From the NCBI GenBank assembly GCA_022678445.1, contig JALBWU010000004.1, positions 124,001 through 188,000 on the forward strand: a stretch of DNA of 64,000 nucleotides, in the 5' to 3' direction. Made by a program: the position numbers and the translations under genes. The notes under the pieces were generated by a model. That model searched no databases, was not told the origin of the DNA, and saw nothing but the letters and a program-made list of their open reading frames with translations. Shown piece by piece: positions 12,993-21,657 of this stretch (position 1 is its first letter; each line of letters starts with the position of its first letter). The DNA is from Candidatus Aramenus sp. CH1. GTDB taxonomy: Archaea > Thermoproteota > Thermoprotei_A > Sulfolobales > Sulfolobaceae.

Positions 12993-13958
12993 CTATAGGT
13001 AGAGAATTTCGTTCTTATACGTAATAATTTTTATCTTATCACCCTCAGTTACTTTACCTAACTCAAAAACTTCATGGTATCTCGATAAAAAGTTTTTAAG
13101 AACTTCCGCGTTCTCTATATCAGTAAATACCACCATTCCCACCCCCATGTTGAACACTCTGTACATCTCGTCGTGAGGTACCCCTGCCTTCTCTATTTCC
13201 TTAAAGACCTCCTGTGGTTCCGGCATCCTCAGCTCAAGCCCGTATTTGGTCACCCTCCTGAGCTTGGTAAAGGAACCTCCAGTGACGTGTGCGACTGCCT
13301 TAACCTTGTCAAGGACTGCGAGGATCTCCTTAACGTAGATCTTCGTCGGCTTCATCAGCTCCTCTCCCCAGTCCTTCAGCGAGAGCTTACCCTCGTCTAT
13401 TAACTTCCTGACGAGCGAAAAGCCGTTTGCATGGACGCCGTTGCTCCCTAGACCTAGCACCACGTCCCCTGGCCTCACCTCATTTCCCAGCTTTGGGGAA
13501 TCAACGACGCCAATGGCAGTGCATGCGATGTCGTAGCCGTTTACGACCCCCTGCATTATTGCCGTCTCTCCCCCGACTACCTCAGCGTCGGACTCCTTAG
13601 CCCCCTTGACCAGGCCCTTAATCAACTGCTCTACCACGTCTTCCATTGGTCTCTCGAGCGCTAGGTAGTCAACCAACGCCACCGGTCTTGCCCCAACTGA
13701 GACCAGGTCGTTGACGTTCATTGCAACGCAGTCCACGCCAATGGGCTCGTATATCCCGGTCTTTAGGGAGAGGACGGTCTTTGTGCCCACTCCGTCCACG
13801 TGAATGGCTATGTTCTGCGTCCCTACCCTCACTACCCCTGAGTAGTGGCCTGCTCCCACTACGGTGTTTTTGTAGGTGGACAAGATCATTTCCGCTATCT
13901 TAGAGTGGAGTTCCCTCTGCTTCCCTATGTCCACCCCTGCGTCAGAGTACTTGGTCAC
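12993..13958 (-). CDS. purM: Phosphoribosylformylglycinamidine cyclo-ligase
   Basis: This 321-residue AIR synthetase of the PurM/PurL superfamily contains YSDAGVDIGKQRELHSKI, VGGETAIMQGVVNGYDIACTA, and SNGVHANGFSLVRKL. It converts FGAM to AIR, step 5 of purine synthesis. It starts with GTG at 13958, in a GTGA overlap with the purD stop. It is the last gene of the eight-gene purine operon that begins at purC. Length and motifs are normal. Confidence 0.94.
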   Translation of the reverse strand: MTKYSDAGVDIGKQRELHSKIAEMILSTYKNTVVGAGHYSGVVRVGTQNIAIHVDGVGTKTVLSLKTGIYEPIGVDCVAMNVNDLVSVGARPVALVDYLALERPMEDVVEQLIKGLVKGAKESDAEVVGGETAIMQGVVNGYDIACTAIGVVDSPKLGNEVRPGDVVLGLGSNGVHANGFSLVRKLIDEGKLSLKDWGEELMKPTKIYVKEILAVLDKVKAVAHVTGGSFTKLRRVTKYGLELRMPEPQEVFKEIEKAGVPHDEMYRVFNMGVGMVVFTDIENAEVLKNFLSRYHEVFELGKVTEGDKIKIITYKNEILYL

Positions 13959-15388
13959 CAGAGACCACCGTTTGGAGACCAGTCAGCCGATACTCCGAGG
14001 ACCCCCCTCTTTATCCTGTCTTTGTACGAGTACCTCACTATCTCCGCCTTCTCCACTTGTTCCTCTATCGTCCTGCCTATGTCTGTGCGGTATACAAGCT
14101 TCGCGTTTGACGACACGAGGGAAGTGCACAAGTCCAGCTTCTTCACTGCCCCCTCGTACGTATCGTCCACGGCCACAAGCTCCATAGCCCTGGAGCCAGT
14201 GGTTACGAGCTTTCCTCCCTCTAGGGCTACTGCCCCAAAGAACGCTTGGCAACCAATCTCCTTCATTTTGGGCAAGTCCAAGGAGATCTCCTTTCCCTTT
14301 GCCAGGTCCCTGTTTAGCGGGTAGCCCAAGGGGGCGATGGCCCTAACTATGGAAGGCCTCGGATCCACCTTAAGCTTTGCCTTGTTTAACCTCCCTGTAG
14401 CTGCCAGCTCCAGGATTTCCCCAAAGTCGCTGGTTATCCTGGGAACAATCGCTGAGGCCTCCGGGTCGCCCAGCCTGGAGTAGAACTCTATGACCGTTGG
14501 CCCCCATAGCTCCGTTAGCATCATTTGACCAGATATAAATCCCACGTATTCGTCTCCGGTCTCCTTCTTTATGGCCTCTGCAGTCTGCTTCACTATCTCG
14601 AAGGTGGCATTGTACTCCTCCTCGTTGATAAAGGGTAACGTATAGCCTGGGCCTGAGATGGAACCCATCCCCCCAGTTTCTGGCCCTATGCCGTCCTGGT
14701 AGGCGTGCTTGTAGTCTTGAGCCAGTGGCAAGGGCAGGAAGCTACGCCCGTCAGTGAGGACGTGGAGGGTGTACTCTGGGCCGTCCACTTTTTCCTCTAT
14801 TATTATTTTCACCTCATCCTTCACCAACTTCCCTATCTCGTCGACGCTCCTGCTTGCGGCTCTCCTCTTCTCGTGGGAGAGATAAGCCTGGATGTCGGCG
14901 ACTACCTTAACCCCCTTACCGCCTACCTGCTCTGAAGGTTTAATTGCTATTGAGCCGCCGTACTCCTCTACGAACTTCGCCGCGTCCGCTAAGTTGTTGA
15001 ACGCCCTATACCTGAGCCTCCCTGGGATGTTGTACTTCCACATGAGGTTCCTCATCCACACCTTCGACTTCTCTATTGTCGACGCCTTGCTTGAGGGCCC
15101 CACTACAGGTATTCCCTCTTCCCTGAAGGCGTTGGCAGCTCCGTTGAAGAGCGGGTCCTCTGGGCCTATGACTCCGAAGTCTGGGCTAACTTGAGATACT
15201 ACTTTCTTCACCTCATCCTTTGACAGGATATTGCCCACGAAGTACTTACCGTTGGTCTTGTCCACGTTCTCCTTTATCCCAGGGTTTACGTAAGAGGAAA
15301 AGGCGTATAGCTGGTATCTCCCGGACTTGGCTATGGAGAACGCCAGGGAGTTCTCCCTGGCACCGTCGCCTATGAGTAGGACTTTCAT
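13955..15388 (-). CDS. purD: Phosphoribosylamine-glycine ligase
   Basis: This 477-residue ATP-grasp enzyme makes GAR. The N-terminal VLLIGDGARENSLAFSI and VIGPEDPLFNGAANAFREEG, the ATP-grasp VGGKGVKVVADIQAY and EYTLHVLTDG, and GPETGGMGSISGPGYTLP are seen in order. It is about 50 residues longer than typical bacterial PurD, with the extra length in the middle and C-terminal parts. The ATG at 15388 immediately follows the stop of the purF paralogue and has GGTGATG just upstream. The purine-operon location fits. Confidence 0.92.
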   Translation of the reverse strand: MKVLLIGDGARENSLAFSIAKSGRYQLYAFSSYVNPGIKENVDKTNGKYFVGNILSKDEVKKVVSQVSPDFGVIGPEDPLFNGAANAFREEGIPVVGPSSKASTIEKSKVWMRNLMWKYNIPGRLRYRAFNNLADAAKFVEEYGGSIAIKPSEQVGGKGVKVVADIQAYLSHEKRRAASRSVDEIGKLVKDEVKIIIEEKVDGPEYTLHVLTDGRSFLPLPLAQDYKHAYQDGIGPETGGMGSISGPGYTLPFINEEEYNATFEIVKQTAEAIKKETGDEYVGFISGQMMLTELWGPTVIEFYSRLGDPEASAIVPRITSDFGEILELAATGRLNKAKLKVDPRPSIVRAIAPLGYPLNRDLAKGKEISLDLPKMKEIGCQAFFGAVALEGGKLVTTGSRAMELVAVDDTYEGAVKKLDLCTSLVSSNAKLVYRTDIGRTIEEQVEKAEIVRYSYKDRIKRGVLGVSADWSPNGGLW

Positions 15389-16591
15389 TCACATCACCTT
15401 CGGGTACCTCCCCACCATACACCCAACGCATATTGTGTTAATACCTATCACCTCGTAAATCCCCTTCAAGCTTAGCCAATATATTGAGTTGGCTCCGATG
15501 ACCTTGGCTATTTCCTCGTCGCTCAAGTTAGCAGCTATTAGATCCGAGGACTTGGGCACGTCAACTCCGTATGGGCAGTGCGAGACCAGCTTGGGGCTTC
15601 CTATCAACACGTGGACTTCCTTTGCCCCGGCCCTCCTTAAGCTCATTACCGTGTTCTTCAACGTGAGCCCCGTGACCATGGAGTCGTCTATCAAGATAAC
15701 CCTCTTGCCGAACACCGCTGACTTCACCACGTTAAGCTTCAGCTGAACCCCAACGACCTTAAGGAAGCTGTCCTGCGCCAGCATCGTCCTTATTGGGCTA
15801 CCGGTCCTCGTGAACCCTAAGTCCATAGGTATACCGGTTGCCCTAGAATAACCAACTGCAAACGGCAACGCTGTGTCCGGCACTCCTATAACCGTGTCTC
15901 CTTGTATGGGCCTCTCCTTGGCTAGCTGTTCTCCTATTCTAACCCTCAAAGCGTATATGTCCCTCTCGTTTACCTTGCCGTCTATTCTGGACTGATAGAC
16001 ATAGTCTATTGCGCAGTAGTTCCTCCTAGGTTCCTTCAACCTCTTAGAGTCTATGTAGTACTTGTCAACTATTACCATCTCCCCAGGGGAAATCTCCCTC
16101 CTCGCCTCCCCGCCTATCACGTTGATAGCCACGTTCTCCGACGACACGATTGCCATGTCAAAGCCAAATCCTCCCAAGCTCAAGGGCTTCAGACCGCTCT
16201 CGTCCCTGTAGGCTATCATCTGCCCTTCCCTAGTTATGGCCACAAGCGAGAATGCTCCCTCTAGCTCAGAGAGCGTCTTCTCAGGGTCCTTTGACAACCC
16301 CCTTAAGGCCTCTGGGTTCTTCAATACTCCGTCCACGGCAACAGCCACGTCCTCGTAGACCACTGGGTATGCCCTTTCCTTTCCGGTGTAGCCTATTCCA
16401 GCCCATCCCTCGCCGTTGAACCTCAAGTCTTCAGGTGACTTGTCTTCCCTGTGCTTGTAGAATTCCCCGTTTAGTAGCACTACCCCACTGGAGGAGTAGC
16501 CCCTGTGCTGTAGGCCTATTAAGGCGTAGTACAAAAACTTGGAGACGTTCCATACCTTGTCAAACGCGAACACTCCTACTATCCCAGCCAT
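15389..16591 (-). CDS. PurF paralogue with inactivated glutaminase site
   Basis: This 400-residue protein is homologous end to end with the neighbouring PurF, but its N terminus reads MAGIVGVFAFD, so the nucleophile cysteine that follows Met in active enzymes is alanine. The glutamine-binding GHVRYSTTG segment has become GIGYTGKE and the NG oxyanion residues are missing. The PRPP loop is kept (VILIDDSMVTGLTL), as are the four cysteine positions matching the PurF Fe-S ligands (NYCAIDY, SHCPYG, CVGC). The start is the ATG at 16591 behind a perfect GGAGGTGA. It may be an ammonia-dependent transferase or a regulatory partner of PurF. The loss of glutaminase residues is clear. Confidence 0.85.
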   Translation of the reverse strand: MAGIVGVFAFDKVWNVSKFLYYALIGLQHRGYSSSGVVLLNGEFYKHREDKSPEDLRFNGEGWAGIGYTGKERAYPVVYEDVAVAVDGVLKNPEALRGLSKDPEKTLSELEGAFSLVAITREGQMIAYRDESGLKPLSLGGFGFDMAIVSSENVAINVIGGEARREISPGEMVIVDKYYIDSKRLKEPRRNYCAIDYVYQSRIDGKVNERDIYALRVRIGEQLAKERPIQGDTVIGVPDTALPFAVGYSRATGIPMDLGFTRTGSPIRTMLAQDSFLKVVGVQLKLNVVKSAVFGKRVILIDDSMVTGLTLKNTVMSLRRAGAKEVHVLIGSPKLVSHCPYGVDVPKSSDLIAANLSDEEIAKVIGANSIYWLSLKGIYEVIGINTICVGCMVGRYPKVM

Positions 16592-16596
16592 GACCT

Positions 16597-17934
16597 TCAC
16601 CTCCTAAAAGCTACCTCTAGTCTTTCAATTTGGTACTTACCTTTTAGTGGGTACTTCCCAGTGAAACAAGCCGTACACAGGGTGTTCCTTCCTATTGCCT
16701 CGACCATTTCCTCCACCGTCAAGTAGCCCAAGGAGTCTGCCCCCAACTCCCTGGCGATCTCTCCCTCAGTCCTACCGTACGCCGCTAGCTCGCTCCTCCT
16801 GGGGAAGTCAATCCCCATATAGCAGGGGTACCTTATTGGAGGGGAGCCTATCCTCAAATGCACTTCCTTAGCCCCGGCGTCCCTTAAGAGCGAGATGAGC
16901 CTCTTCATGGTGTTCCCCCTGACTATGGAGTCGTCTATGAGGACGACCCTCTTGCCTTTTAAGACCTCCTCCACTACGCCGAACTTCTCCTCAAGAACCT
17001 CGTTCCTCTTCTCGTTTGTGGGCATTATAAATGACCTCTTTGATGCCAAGGTTCTCACGAGGCCCTCTTCAAAGGGTATTCCGCTCCTCCTTGAAAAGCC
17101 AATGGCGATGGGCCTAGACGAGTCGGGGACTGGGACGACGATGTCCGCGTCGACTGGGTGCCTTTCGAAAAGCACTTCCCCTAACCTCTCCCTAGCCCTA
17201 TATACAGAAATCCCGTCTATCACGCTGTCGGCCCTTGAAAAGTAGATGTACTCGAAGGCACAAGTGCTCACTTCCGACTTTGACAACACATCGGAGTAAA
17301 CTTCCCCTTCCTTGATCACTACCAGCTCCCCGGGGTATACGTCCCTAATTACCTTACCTCCCAGTTGCCTTATAGGTGAGTCCTCCGACGACACCACGAC
17401 GCTCTTTCCTATCCTCCCGAGCACTAGGGGCCTAAAGCCCTTTGGGTCCCTCACCGCGTAGATTTCCCCCGACCTAGTCAGCACCAACAAGGAGTAGGCT
17501 CCGTCAGCCACGTCGACGAAGTGCTTAATAGCGTGGACTAGGCTTTTCCCGCCCTCCAGATCCTTGTTGAGGAACTTTAGGATAAACTCCGTGTCCGTGG
17601 AGAAGTTGCCGAACTCGAAGTAGTTTGTTATTGTCCCGTTAAACGCCACTGCCAACACTTCGTTGCTCAGTGGCTGTGCCTCCTCCAAGGTCGTCTTCCC
17701 AGTAGTAGAGTACCTTACGTGACCTATGCCCACGTTTGAGTTGCTGTCTATGCCTTCCCCTAATGCCTCCTCAACTAGCCCCAGTCCCTTCACGGTCTTC
17801 AACCTACCGTCTTCCACAAAGGATATGCCCGCCGATTCCTGTCCCCTGTGCTGGAGGAGCTTCAGTCCCTCGTACACGTACCTTACCGAGTCCTCTCCCT
17901 TTACTCCAAACACACCGCAGTGCTCTTTAATCAC
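16597..17934 (-). CDS. purF: Amidophosphoribosyltransferase
   Basis: This 445-residue enzyme catalyses the committed step: PRPP plus glutamine to phosphoribosylamine. It begins MIKEHCGVFGVKG, so the N-terminal nucleophile C6 would be exposed after removal of a short propeptide. GHVRYSTTG and FNGTITN complete the glutaminase site, and the PRPP motif is VVLIDDSIVRGNT. Four cysteines (STCAFEY, RYPCYMG, CTAC) correspond to a 4Fe-4S cluster as in Bacillus-type PurF. The gene overlaps the purL end by 8 nt and lies directly upstream of its degenerate paralogue. Confidence 0.95.
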   Translation of the reverse strand: MIKEHCGVFGVKGEDSVRYVYEGLKLLQHRGQESAGISFVEDGRLKTVKGLGLVEEALGEGIDSNSNVGIGHVRYSTTGKTTLEEAQPLSNEVLAVAFNGTITNYFEFGNFSTDTEFILKFLNKDLEGGKSLVHAIKHFVDVADGAYSLLVLTRSGEIYAVRDPKGFRPLVLGRIGKSVVVSSEDSPIRQLGGKVIRDVYPGELVVIKEGEVYSDVLSKSEVSTCAFEYIYFSRADSVIDGISVYRARERLGEVLFERHPVDADIVVPVPDSSRPIAIGFSRRSGIPFEEGLVRTLASKRSFIMPTNEKRNEVLEEKFGVVEEVLKGKRVVLIDDSIVRGNTMKRLISLLRDAGAKEVHLRIGSPPIRYPCYMGIDFPRRSELAAYGRTEGEIARELGADSLGYLTVEEMVEAIGRNTLCTACFTGKYPLKGKYQIERLEVAFRR

Positions 17935-20041
17935 TCAACTCCTCCTCCAAGTAGTTTAAGTAGTGTTCGACCTCTCTCTCGACGTTGAGCTTCCTTGAGC
18001 CTATCTCGAGGTAATTCCCCTCCTTCTTTACTTCCCCTATCACCGACGCTATCACCCCTCTTCTCTTTGCCCTCTCAACTACGCTTTCTGGGGAGTTGGT
18101 TATCGCGATAAACCTCCCTCCGTTCTCGGAGAAGAGCTTAGCCATAAGGTCGTCGGTTCCAAGGACCTTGTCTGGGTCGACTTTTGCTGAGTAGCCCTTG
18201 CTTAGGACAGCCATTAGGGTGCCGACGAGGCCTCCCCTGTTCACGTCCTTTACGAAGGTGATGATCCCTTGGTTGATCAAGTCGAGGACGACCTCGCTCG
18301 CTAAGTAGTCCTCCTGTAACCTCACCTTGGGAACCTCGCCATGGGGGCCGAACAGCTTGGCGAAGAGCGACCCCCTCATCTCGTTCCTGGTGTACCCTAT
18401 GAGCACTAGGGCCCCCTCCTCTACTTTTGGCTTGAGTAATTTCCCCTCCACTAGTCCCGCCATCACGACGAGAGGCGTGGGCTTTATCGGTACGCCGTTC
18501 TTGTTCTCGTTGTAGAAGGAGACCTTCCCCCCAACGATGGGTATGGAGAAGAACCTCGCTGCCTCCCCAATCCCCCTGACTGCGTCAACGAAGTTACTGT
18601 ATATCTCGGGCTTCCTGGGATCGCCGAACTGGAGGTGGTCTACCGCAGCTACCCCCCTAGCCCCCACAACCGCCAAGTTCCTATAGGCTTCAGCAAATAT
18701 CGCCTTTCCGCACTCGTAAGCGTCCTCAGCGCAGAGGTCGGGGTTTGCGTCCCCCTTTATGGCCAACAGCTTGCCGTTTGGCAGGGAGACCACTGCTGAG
18801 TCTGCCTCCCCTGGCTTCACTACCGTTGACGTGCCAACTTCGTAGTCGAACTGGGAGTACGCCCACTCCTTGCTTGCTTGGTCTGGGTGCGTGAGAACAG
18901 AGCGCACTGCTTGTTCGAGCTCAACGTTCGGTTTCACGTCTATTTTCCTCGCCTTCTCCCTTATTGGCCAGGCGTAAAGCGGAGGGGACAGGAGGAGTTC
19001 TGACGGAAGGGAAGCTATTTCCTTTCCTTCGTAGATGAACCTTATCACGCTGTCTGCAGATATCTCGCCTATAACCGCACAAGGGTACTCGTAATACTCA
19101 AAGGCCCTACAGACGTAGTCTACGTTTTCCTCCCTAACTGCAAAGAGCATCCTCTCCTGGGTCTCGGAGATTATGATGTCCTCCGGGCTCATGTCCTTAA
19201 CCCTGAGGGGTACCTTGTCGACGTATACCCTGGCCCCCAGCCCGTTGGCCATTTCAGTCACTGCTACCGCTAACCCACCACCACCTAGGTCCTTTATAGC
19301 CTCTACCTTGTCGGCCACCTCTAGCGTAACGTCCATGACTATCTTGCCCGCGAACGGGTCTGCTATCTGGACAGCCCCAATCTCGTTTTCCCCGCTAAGC
19401 TTCCTGGAAGCAAAGGACGCCCCTCCTAGGCCATCTATTCCGGTGAGTCCCGTCAGGACTAGCTTCAGCCCGGGCTCCTTGACGACGCTCGGCTTTATCT
19501 TGTCCTTCTTGACGATACCGACGCAGGCGACGTCAACCAGTGGGTTGTCCGAGAAGGACTCGTCAAAGGAGAGCTCCCCTCCAACTACCGGGATGCCGAT
19601 GCTATTTCCGTAAAAGCCTATCCCAGCGATAATGTTCTTCAAGAGCCACTTGTTTCTGCTGTCCCTTAACCCGCCTACCCTTATCATGTCTAGCAAGGCT
19701 ATTGGTGTGGCCCCTTTGCTTATTATGTCCCTTATGATGCCTCCAACTCCAGTGGCCGCGCCGTTAAAGGGGTCAACAGCTGACGGGTGGTTGTGACTCT
19801 CAACCTTTAGCACTATTGCGTAGCCGTCGCCTATGTCAACTGCTCCCGCGTCCTGCCAGTCCTCTATCCCCATCACTACTCTTGGGCCCTCGCTTGGAAA
19901 GCTCCTCAGGAATATCTTTGACGACTTGTAGGAGCAGTGCTCGGACCATAGGGCGTCAATGACCTTAACTTCGGCAGGGTTTGGATCCCTGCCCAGCCTT
20001 TTCCTAGCGACGTCTAGTTCATACTCTGAGAGGTTTACCAC
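17927..20041 (-). CDS. purL: FGAM synthase subunit PurL (small type)
   Basis: This 704-residue protein is the short form that needs PurS and PurQ, both encoded just upstream. Visible are ALWSEHCSYKSSK near the N terminus, VLKVESHNHPSAVDPFNGAATG (catalytic His region), DLGGGGLAVAVTEMANG, and a second PurM-like half containing KDVNRGGLVGTL. It converts FGAR to FGAM with ATP and PurQ-derived ammonia. It overlaps purQ by 7 nt and purF by 8 nt. Nothing unusual seen. Confidence 0.95.
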   Translation of the reverse strand: MVNLSEYELDVARKRLGRDPNPAEVKVIDALWSEHCSYKSSKIFLRSFPSEGPRVVMGIEDWQDAGAVDIGDGYAIVLKVESHNHPSAVDPFNGAATGVGGIIRDIISKGATPIALLDMIRVGGLRDSRNKWLLKNIIAGIGFYGNSIGIPVVGGELSFDESFSDNPLVDVACVGIVKKDKIKPSVVKEPGLKLVLTGLTGIDGLGGASFASRKLSGENEIGAVQIADPFAGKIVMDVTLEVADKVEAIKDLGGGGLAVAVTEMANGLGARVYVDKVPLRVKDMSPEDIIISETQERMLFAVREENVDYVCRAFEYYEYPCAVIGEISADSVIRFIYEGKEIASLPSELLLSPPLYAWPIREKARKIDVKPNVELEQAVRSVLTHPDQASKEWAYSQFDYEVGTSTVVKPGEADSAVVSLPNGKLLAIKGDANPDLCAEDAYECGKAIFAEAYRNLAVVGARGVAAVDHLQFGDPRKPEIYSNFVDAVRGIGEAARFFSIPIVGGKVSFYNENKNGVPIKPTPLVVMAGLVEGKLLKPKVEEGALVLIGYTRNEMRGSLFAKLFGPHGEVPKVRLQEDYLASEVVLDLINQGIITFVKDVNRGGLVGTLMAVLSKGYSAKVDPDKVLGTDDLMAKLFSENGGRFIAITNSPESVVERAKRRGVIASVIGEVKKEGNYLEIGSRKLNVEREVEHYLNYLEEELSD

Positions 20042-20703
20042 CTCAATCCCCTCAACAGAAGTAGTCCGTCAACGTTTCCGTCAACTGAAGTTAAGGGAAA
20101 GGAAGCCCTCTCGGGGTGAGGCATTAGCCCAATTACGTTACCCTCCTCGTTGGCTATACCAGCGATGTTCAGCACGGAGCCGTTGGGGTTGTAGTCCTCT
20201 GAAACCTCCCCTTTCTCGTTTGAGTACTGAAACACCATAAGCCTCCTAGCTTCCTCCCCGTCTAAGACGAACCTGCCCTCGGCGTGGGCTATTGGCATCC
20301 TCAAAACCTTCTTTGGCAGGTTCTTGGTGAGCCTAGTGTCATCCCTCACCACCTTCACGTAAATCCACTTGGATATGAACCTCATCTTCAAGTTGGGCAG
20401 GAGGCCTCCCTTTAGGAGACCGCTTTCAGTCAAGATCTGGAATCCGTTGCATATACCCAGCACGGTCTTCCCTTGGTCTGCCATCTCCTTTACCATCTTC
20501 ATGGTCTCCGTGCTTGCAGCTATTGACCCTGCCCTTAAGTAGTCGCCAAAGCTGAAACCCCCCGGTATTACGACGGAGGAGTACCTATCTGGGTCCAAGT
20601 CCTTGTACCTCACTATCTCGGCCTCTACCTTTGCCTCCCCCAGCGCCTTCAGGACGTCATAATCGCAAGTGGTTCCAGGGAACTTAATGACCGCCGTCTT
20701 CGT
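20035..20703 (-). CDS. purQ: FGAM synthase glutaminase subunit PurQ, with non-canonical start
   Basis: This class I glutaminase has its nucleophile in VLGICNGFQIL and histidine in LMPHPERASFP. The only in-frame ATG/GTG/TTG is a GTG at 20613, but the family-conserved N terminus FPGTTCDYDVLKAL is encoded upstream of it, without any stop. An ACG at 20703 gives MKTAVIKFPG, exactly the expected beginning. It follows GGTGAGG (20708-20714) with good spacing and lies within the end of purS, giving about 222 residues. An ATT at 20688 is an alternative. The frame is closed by TGA just before the ACG. The function is secure and the start is inferred. Confidence 0.85.
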   Translation of the reverse strand, partial: TKTAVIKFPGTTCDYDVLKALGEAKVEAEIVRYKDLDPDRYSSVVIPGGFSFGDYLRAGSIAASTETMKMVKEMADQGKTVLGICNGFQILTESGLLKGGLLPNLKMRFISKWIYVKVVRDDTRLTKNLPKKVLRMPIAHAEGRFVLDGEEARRLMVFQYSNEKGEVSEDYNPNGSVLNIAGIANEEGNVIGLMPHPERASFPLTSVDGNVDGLLLLRGLRW

Positions 20704-20950
20704 TCTTCCTCACCCTTATTTCCACCTTGTGAACAATGGGGTTGTAGAGCCTCTTTTCGTCAGCGACTCTCTTGGCTATGTTCATAGCTTCCTCCTCTGA
20801 CCCCGCGTCTACCCTGAAAAGTACGTACTTCCCCGCCCTCACTTCCTTGACCTTGTCGGTCACCTTGTCTACCATGTACTTCTTTATTGTTTCTCCCTCT
20901 GGGTCCCTTACCCCTTCCTTGTTAAGGACAATTATCTCCACGCTGTACAT
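20684..20950 (-). CDS. purS: FGAM synthase subunit PurS
   Basis: This 88-residue alpha/beta protein begins [20 protein letters not shown] and continues RAGKYVLFRVD, typical of PurS, which dimerises and bridges PurL and PurQ for ammonia transfer. Its ATG overlaps the purC stop by one base, and its 3' end overlaps the inferred start of purQ by about 20 nt. The presence of PurS agrees with the short PurL downstream. Confidence 0.92.
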   Translation of the reverse strand: MYSVEIIVLNKEGVRDPEGETIKKYMVDKVTDKVKEVRAGKYVLFRVDAGSEEEAMNIAKRVADEKRLYNPIVHKVEIRVRKNEDGGH

Positions 20951-21657
20951 CAGACCACCCTCTTTAACCTCTCGAGGAACTCAGCGTAAGAAGACGCCAC
21001 CACCTCAAGGGGCTGTCCCTTCCTGTAGAGGTCCTTGTCGTATATTCTCCCCTCCCTGTCCCTTACCCTCATGGAGTCCAAGGATATCTCATCACCTATG
21101 ATGAGCTCGTCGCCCAGCCTTCCGAACTCCAACTTGAAGTCGTAGAGGACGAGGCTCATCCTCTTTACCATGCCCTTAAGTACCTTGTTTGCCCTTACCA
21201 TTATCTCTTCTACCTGTTCAGCCTCCTTCCTCGTCATTAGCTTCAGGAACTCCATGTGGTGGTAATTTAGCATGGGATCGTGTCTAGCGTCGTCCTTCAA
21301 GAAGAACTCGACTATGGGAGGGTCGAAGACCTCCCCTTCCTTTATTGGCAACCTCTTCACTATGCTACCTGTGGCCAAGTTCCTGAGTACCACCTCAACG
21401 GGTACCATCTTCAGCCTCTTGGCTATCATAGTCCTCTCGTCGTACATCCCAACGTAGTGCGTCTTGATTCCTTCCCTCTCTAAAGCCCTAAAGAAGAGGG
21501 CAGACGTTTGGGCGTTAATTACGCCCTTGTCTTTTATCACGTCGACCTTTGCCCCGTCCCCGGCGGTAACGGTGTCCTTGAACTTCAGGAGCACGTGCCC
21601 CTCATCAAAGGAGTAAACTTCCTTTGTCTTCCCTTCCCCGAGCTTCGTAAATTCCAT
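20950..21657 (-). CDS. purC: SAICAR synthetase
   Basis: This 235-residue enzyme joins CAIR with aspartate. It starts [17 protein letters not shown] and carries [33 protein letters not shown] and [12 protein letters not shown], all family signatures. It is the first gene of the purine operon (purC-S-Q-L-F-F'-D-M). The TATA box at 21678-21687 is centred about 26 nt before the ATG, so translation probably begins at the transcript 5' end. No purE/purK, purB, purH or purP is present here, so the pathway is completed elsewhere. Confidence 0.95.

Follow-up and report, generated by a model that had tools for sequence, protein, structure and literature searches.

PurF', a conserved glutaminase-dead PurF paralogue in the purine operon of a Candidatus Aramenus relative

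Introduction

PurF catalyzes the step that commits metabolites to purine synthesis and is subject to feedback control, and the known enzymes of this type (GPATases) are, to our knowledge, homotetramers. A second PurF-like protein has been described in crenarchaea by Brown et al. 2011 (Biol Direct 6:63, PMC3261824), who divided PurF into two clusters and found one gene of each in all the crenarchaea that they examined. The cluster lacking the nucleophilic Cys was named PurF', and both the Ala or Val found in place of this Cys and the linkage to purine genes were noted (PMC3261824). An ammonia-dependent activity of PurF' was put forward as a hypothesis needing experiments, and that study closed without an established biochemical or regulatory explanation for PurF' (PMC3261824). 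In the literature searched we found no later study of PurF', and the main text of the S. islandicus essential-genome paper makes no mention of purF.

The PurF' phenomenon is therefore already known, and the gene described here is a member from a Sulfolobales archaeon close to Candidatus Aramenus. Our analysis adds a wider range within the phylum, a single origin, coupling to purF, and the conservation of the Fe-S cysteines and the flexible loop of PurF'.

Results

The window, i.e. the whole stretch of 64,000 nucleotides of Candidatus Aramenus sp. CH1 that was analyzed, contains a compact purine operon with the gene order purC-purS-purQ-purL-purF-purF'-purD-purM. The genuine amidophosphoribosyltransferase gene purF (16597..17934, minus strand) encodes the nucleophile motif EHCGVFG, the Cys of which aligns with Cys1 of 1gph, and its product scores 428 bits against TIGR01134, which is over the cut-off. 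Upstream of purF are purC (20950..21657; TIGR00081, 196 bits), purS (20684..20950; TIGR00302 / NF004450), purQ (20035..20706; TIGR01737, 258 bits from model position 33, with TKTAVIKFPGTTCDYD in the upstream frame) and purL (17927..20041; TIGR01736, 835 bits), while purD for phosphoribosylamine-glycine ligase (13955..15388; TIGR00877, 323 bits) and purM (12993..13958; TIGR00878, 299 bits) are located at the downstream end, all on the minus strand.

At the 5' end of purQ (20614-20712, minus strand; TKTAVIKFPGTTCDYD) there is no ATG, GTG or TTG between the in-frame stop and the conserved N-terminus. The same gap occurs in both Aramenus-like genomes (that of the window and L001), and GGTGAGGA is found shortly 5' of an ACG codon. 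The true purQ start probably lies upstream of position 20613, which was chosen by the ORF caller, and in Aramenus-like genomes it may be a non-standard codon such as ACG.

The gene of interest, purF' (15389..16591, minus strand), encodes a glutaminase-dead PurF paralogue of 400 amino acids (MAGIVGVF...), as judged from its ORF, its identity to PurF, TIGR01134 and an AlphaFold model. In agreement with the initial annotation, it is flanked by purF upstream and purD downstream, the latter following directly after the purF' stop codon (15389-15391). The ATG is at 16589-16591, and the mechanically called ORF begins at a GTG at 16600, three codons before this ATG. The plus strand of 15389-16591 is stop-rich, and the minus strand is the coding strand. 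The strong ribosome-binding site that had been assigned to purF' is real: a Shine-Dalgarno sequence, GGAGGTGA (16597..16604, minus strand), is present just 5' of the ATG, where it overlaps the last codons and the stop codon of purF, and the distance from the purF stop to the purF' ATG is five bases. The window PurF' is 35% identical to the neighboring PurF over the PurF' length and scores 222 bits against TIGR01134, under the curated cut-off of 350. Its nearest named relative is from Candidatus Aramenus sulfurataquae (96% identity), and the genome to which the window belongs has PurF and PurF' each in single copy.

Active-site residues were compared by aligning 63 PurF' and 78 PurF sequences of Thermoproteota genomes to B. 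subtilis PurF, after which the residues are numbered. In PurF, C1, R72 and Y73 were present in 77 of the 78 sequences (the remaining one is truncated by the end of its contig), while N102 and D127 were found in every one. At these five positions the window PurF' has A, a deletion, a deletion, D and N, and thus falls outside the PurF pattern. The Cys-to-Ala replacement in MAGIVGVF had been read correctly, with the Ala at the position of the Cys in EHCGVFG, and so had the loss of the glutamine-binding Arg motif, R72-Y73 being deleted where GHVRYST is replaced by GYTGKE. The proposed loss of the NG residues stands for the Asn, which has become Asp, but not for the Gly, which is still present in VDG.

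The same picture emerged across the PurF' family. Cys at position 1 of relatives, which would have counted against the initial annotation, occurred in none of the 63 PurF' proteins; the position is taken by Ala in 30, Ser in 10, Thr in 8, Gly in 6 and Pro in 4, the others having a different residue or, in 4 cases, none aligned. R72-Y73 was deleted in 62 of 63, and N102 was changed to Asp in 47 of 63. Ser and Thr could in principle serve as nucleophiles, but a glutaminase using one of them is unlikely, as the PurF' proteins with Ser or Thr also lack Arg-Tyr and Asn102. The absence of the Cys from all 63 proteins and of Arg-Tyr from 62, alongside four cysteines that are kept in 60, 63, 63 and 63 of them, is a pattern far beyond chance. 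From these residues we predict that PurF' has no glutamine-dependent phosphoribosylamine synthesis.

The four cysteines just mentioned are Cys193, Cys339, Cys388 and Cys391 of the window PurF', in the order of the counts given. They align with C236, C382, C437 and C440 of B. subtilis PurF, which we take to be its 4Fe-4S ligands, so that their description as Fe-S-type cysteines holds. PurF' hence has the four-Cys arrangement of a B. subtilis-type Fe-S GPATase with a putative cluster.

The PRPP loop, initially described as intact, is so in its core: IDDSMVTGLT in the window PurF' compares with IDDSIVRGNT in PurF, and the DDS, G and T are kept (pattern DDS..G.T, as DDSMVTGLT), but the R is replaced by T. 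The window PurF' also retains the Arg of the flexible loop. The PRPP-loop R350 is replaced in about half of the PurF' proteins, which could mean weaker catalysis. Other residues of the PRPP site are nearly invariant, with D345, D346, G351 and R311 present in 63/63 and S347 and Y242 in 62/63 PurF'. In AtGPRAT2 of Arabidopsis, activity is greatly reduced or lost when the corresponding Asp-Asp-Ser or Tyr is mutated (PMC7056826).

PurF' is more than a degenerate copy, since at the PRPP site it carries a near-invariant motif of its own, V-G-V-P-[ED]-T-A-x-P-[FY] followed by T-G-x-x-x-R-[ST]...GVQLKLNP, in which the flexible-loop residues L327 and K328 are present in 63/63. The flexible loop of PurF' is better conserved (0.478) than that of PurF in the same genomes (0.386). 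F313-I314 of this loop, invariant in the 78 PurF, is changed in PurF', which would fit the loss of an internal ammonia path. In the window purF (16597-17934) the flexible loop reads TLASKRSFIMP; it has lost the NRYVG part that most other PurF proteins keep. Compensation by PurF' would be one reading of this loss, which affects the family of the window (f1), but the loop is also altered in genomes without PurF'.

Losses in PurF' fall mostly, though not only, in the glutaminase half: of the residues near-invariant in PurF, its glutaminase domain keeps 6 of 20 and its transferase domain 17 of 26 (Fisher p 0.036). In the comparison of the two Aramenus-like genomes the dN/dS of PurF' was 0.016/0.40 (about 0.04), with 0.006/0.44 (about 0.014) for the transferase half and 0.028/0.35 (about 0.08) for the dead glutaminase half. 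Purifying selection thus acts on PurF', including its dead domain. The idea that selective loss implies retention is borne out by this overall ratio, by the single ancient origin described below and by the location of the losses mainly in the glutaminase domain. The mean pairwise identity of the dead glutaminase domain (0.325) comes close to the 0.374 for the live domain of PurF in the same genomes; conservation to this degree in a domain that has lost its reaction points to a structural or interface role. The AlphaFold model of PurF' (pLDDT 92.6, the flexible loop having the lowest confidence) shows a complete GATase plus PRTase fold. Its best fold match was B. subtilis PurF 1ao0, and PurF structures were matched over the full length.

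A phylogeny with purF homologues, suggested in the initial annotation as a check, placed PurF' in one clade (SH-aLRT 100, whole-protein tree). Separate trees of the two domains gave the same split with clade supports of 99 and 100 and thus no indication of gene conversion. With B. subtilis and Arabidopsis as the root, a two-sequence rooting that is weak, PurF' is sister to all Thermoproteota PurF. Because proteins from across the phylum fall in this one clade, the duplication is ancient, and PurF' is an ancient, vertically inherited paralogue of PurF.

Among 151 Thermoproteota genomes, 53 had both proteins, 51 had PurF alone (two of these being cut at a contig end), 45 had neither and 2 had PurF' alone; in both of the latter assemblies the place expected for purF is cut off by the contig end. 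In 38 of the 53 genomes with both, purF' immediately follows purF on its strand, and across distant families the spacing is -16 to +13 nt. In the remaining pair-bearing genomes purF' faces purF in convergent orientation, lies several kilobases from it or sits at another genomic location, and it does not adjoin purF in several families (f7, f8 in part, f9, f18). PurF' is kept even where it is apart from purF, so linkage alone does not explain its retention. At least three lineages (G112, G129, G222) have PurF alone although their PurF groups among pair-bearing ones, which means that PurF is able to function in the absence of PurF'. Many lineages manage with PurF alone, and PurF' is an addition rather than a universal requirement. 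Two genomes of family f18, G196 and G206, have an unlinked PurF' with an in-frame stop (TAG, TGA), which is possibly due to decay or a sequencing error.

The surveyed genomes were also searched for IMP cyclohydrolases. PurO was found in 0 of the 151, including the 51 with PurF but without PurF', and a PurH-type domain in only 8 of the 151, being rare both with and without PurF'. An IMP cyclohydrolase of these two types is therefore missing from nearly all of these Thermoproteota genomes.

Discussion

PurF' has a dead glutaminase site, but it is under strong selection and retains an intact-looking PRPP site and 4Fe-4S ligands. We favor the reading, with a probability of about 0.5, that it is a PRPP-binding partner subunit in a GPATase-type PurF/PurF' hetero-oligomer. 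Three lines of evidence, each indirect, point to this: the dependence of PurF' on PurF, the translational coupling and the conserved dead domain. In such an assembly glutamine would be hydrolyzed by PurF, whereas PurF' would bind PRPP or purine nucleotides and would either make phosphoribosylamine with ammonia from PurF or tune PurF through the shared assembly, the coupling serving to deliver the two chains together. A more far-reaching version, which we consider rather unlikely, is that many Thermoproteota have a two-gene, split GPATase, in which PurF would provide the ammonia from glutamine and PurF', with a conserved flexible loop of its own, would be where phosphoribosylamine is mainly made or where feedback control acts. 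We know of no other split GPATase, and such a divided enzyme would be the first.

The proposal of Brown et al. 2011, that PurF' is a free-standing, ammonia-dependent PRPP aminotransferase converting PRPP and free NH3 to phosphoribosylamine beside PurF, is possible but in our view somewhat unlikely. It is consistent with the behavior of E. coli PurF, which loses its use of glutamine, though not of ammonia, once the N-terminal Cys is exchanged for Ala or Ser (Mei and Zalkin 1989, cited in PMC3261824), and with the conserved PRPP-site residues and the strongly conserved motif that PurF' has in its flexible loop. However, an enzyme of this kind should need neither PurF nor start-stop coupling, yet PurF' always accompanies PurF, and it should not need a conserved dead glutaminase domain, on which selection is nevertheless seen.

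That PurF' might instead be a catalytically silent pseudoenzyme, which would sense PRPP, purine nucleotides or the Fe-S state and regulate PurF in the manner of the PRPP-synthetase-associated proteins, appears unlikely. F313-I314, R350 and D387, near-invariant in PurF, are indeed changed in many or all PurF' proteins, and the retention of the DDS and the four cysteines in a protein paired with PurF is what such a sensor could show. Pseudoenzymes usually relax their active site, though, while the transferase site of PurF' has a near-invariant motif of its own (GVPET, GVQLKLNP; L327 and K328 in 63/63) and the lowest dN/dS of the pair.

We consider it very unlikely that the PRPP site serves another purine reaction, e.g. 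the IMP cyclohydrolase step or a salvage transfer. The systematic difference of the flexible loop from that of PurF (T263, G264, QLKLN) and the missing cyclohydrolase would agree with this, but PurO is absent also from the 51 PurF-only genomes, so PurF' does not track the gap, and the residues kept in PurF' are the PRPP-binding ones. A link between PurF' and the missing IMP cyclohydrolase was accordingly rejected, PurH being rare in both sets of genomes. Finally, the notion of a relic turning into a pseudogene, to which the in-frame stops in the two f18 genomes might point, is extremely unlikely, being already contradicted by the phylum-wide retention from a single origin, the dN/dS of about 0.04 and the invariant sites.

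If PurF cannot do without PurF' as its partner in archaea that have both, their enzyme would be assembled and regulated unlike the bacterial and plant homotetramers, and the label 'second amidophosphoribosyltransferase' would be wrong for PurF'. The strict co-occurrence, the coupling and the site pattern lend themselves to simple tests of its role in Sulfolobus.

Compared with known systems, PurF' shares with the B. subtilis-type PurF (1gph, 1ao0) the full fold (TM-score of 0.86 for the query length, with 32% identity over the structural alignment), the DDS loop and the four cysteines, but unlike it PurF' has no Cys and no Arg-Tyr, the oxyanion Asn is replaced by Asp, and the flexible-loop Phe-Ile is changed. 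The PRPP-synthetase-associated proteins are pseudoenzyme partners of PRPP synthetase, in which an impaired paralogue is likewise kept beside its active twin; they belong to another enzyme family, and their complex has been shown, whereas that of PurF' is hypothetical. Mlab_0150 of Methanocorpusculum labreanum is, like PurF', a PurF copy without the Cys, there replaced by Ser, but it arose in a euryarchaeon by a separate duplication that is described as relatively recent (PMC3261824). Closest is the PurF' cluster of Brown et al. 2011: the window gene likewise encodes a second PurF-like protein in a distinct cluster, with the Cys replaced and located near purF and other pur genes, and it shows all three marks of membership and differs in nothing essential.
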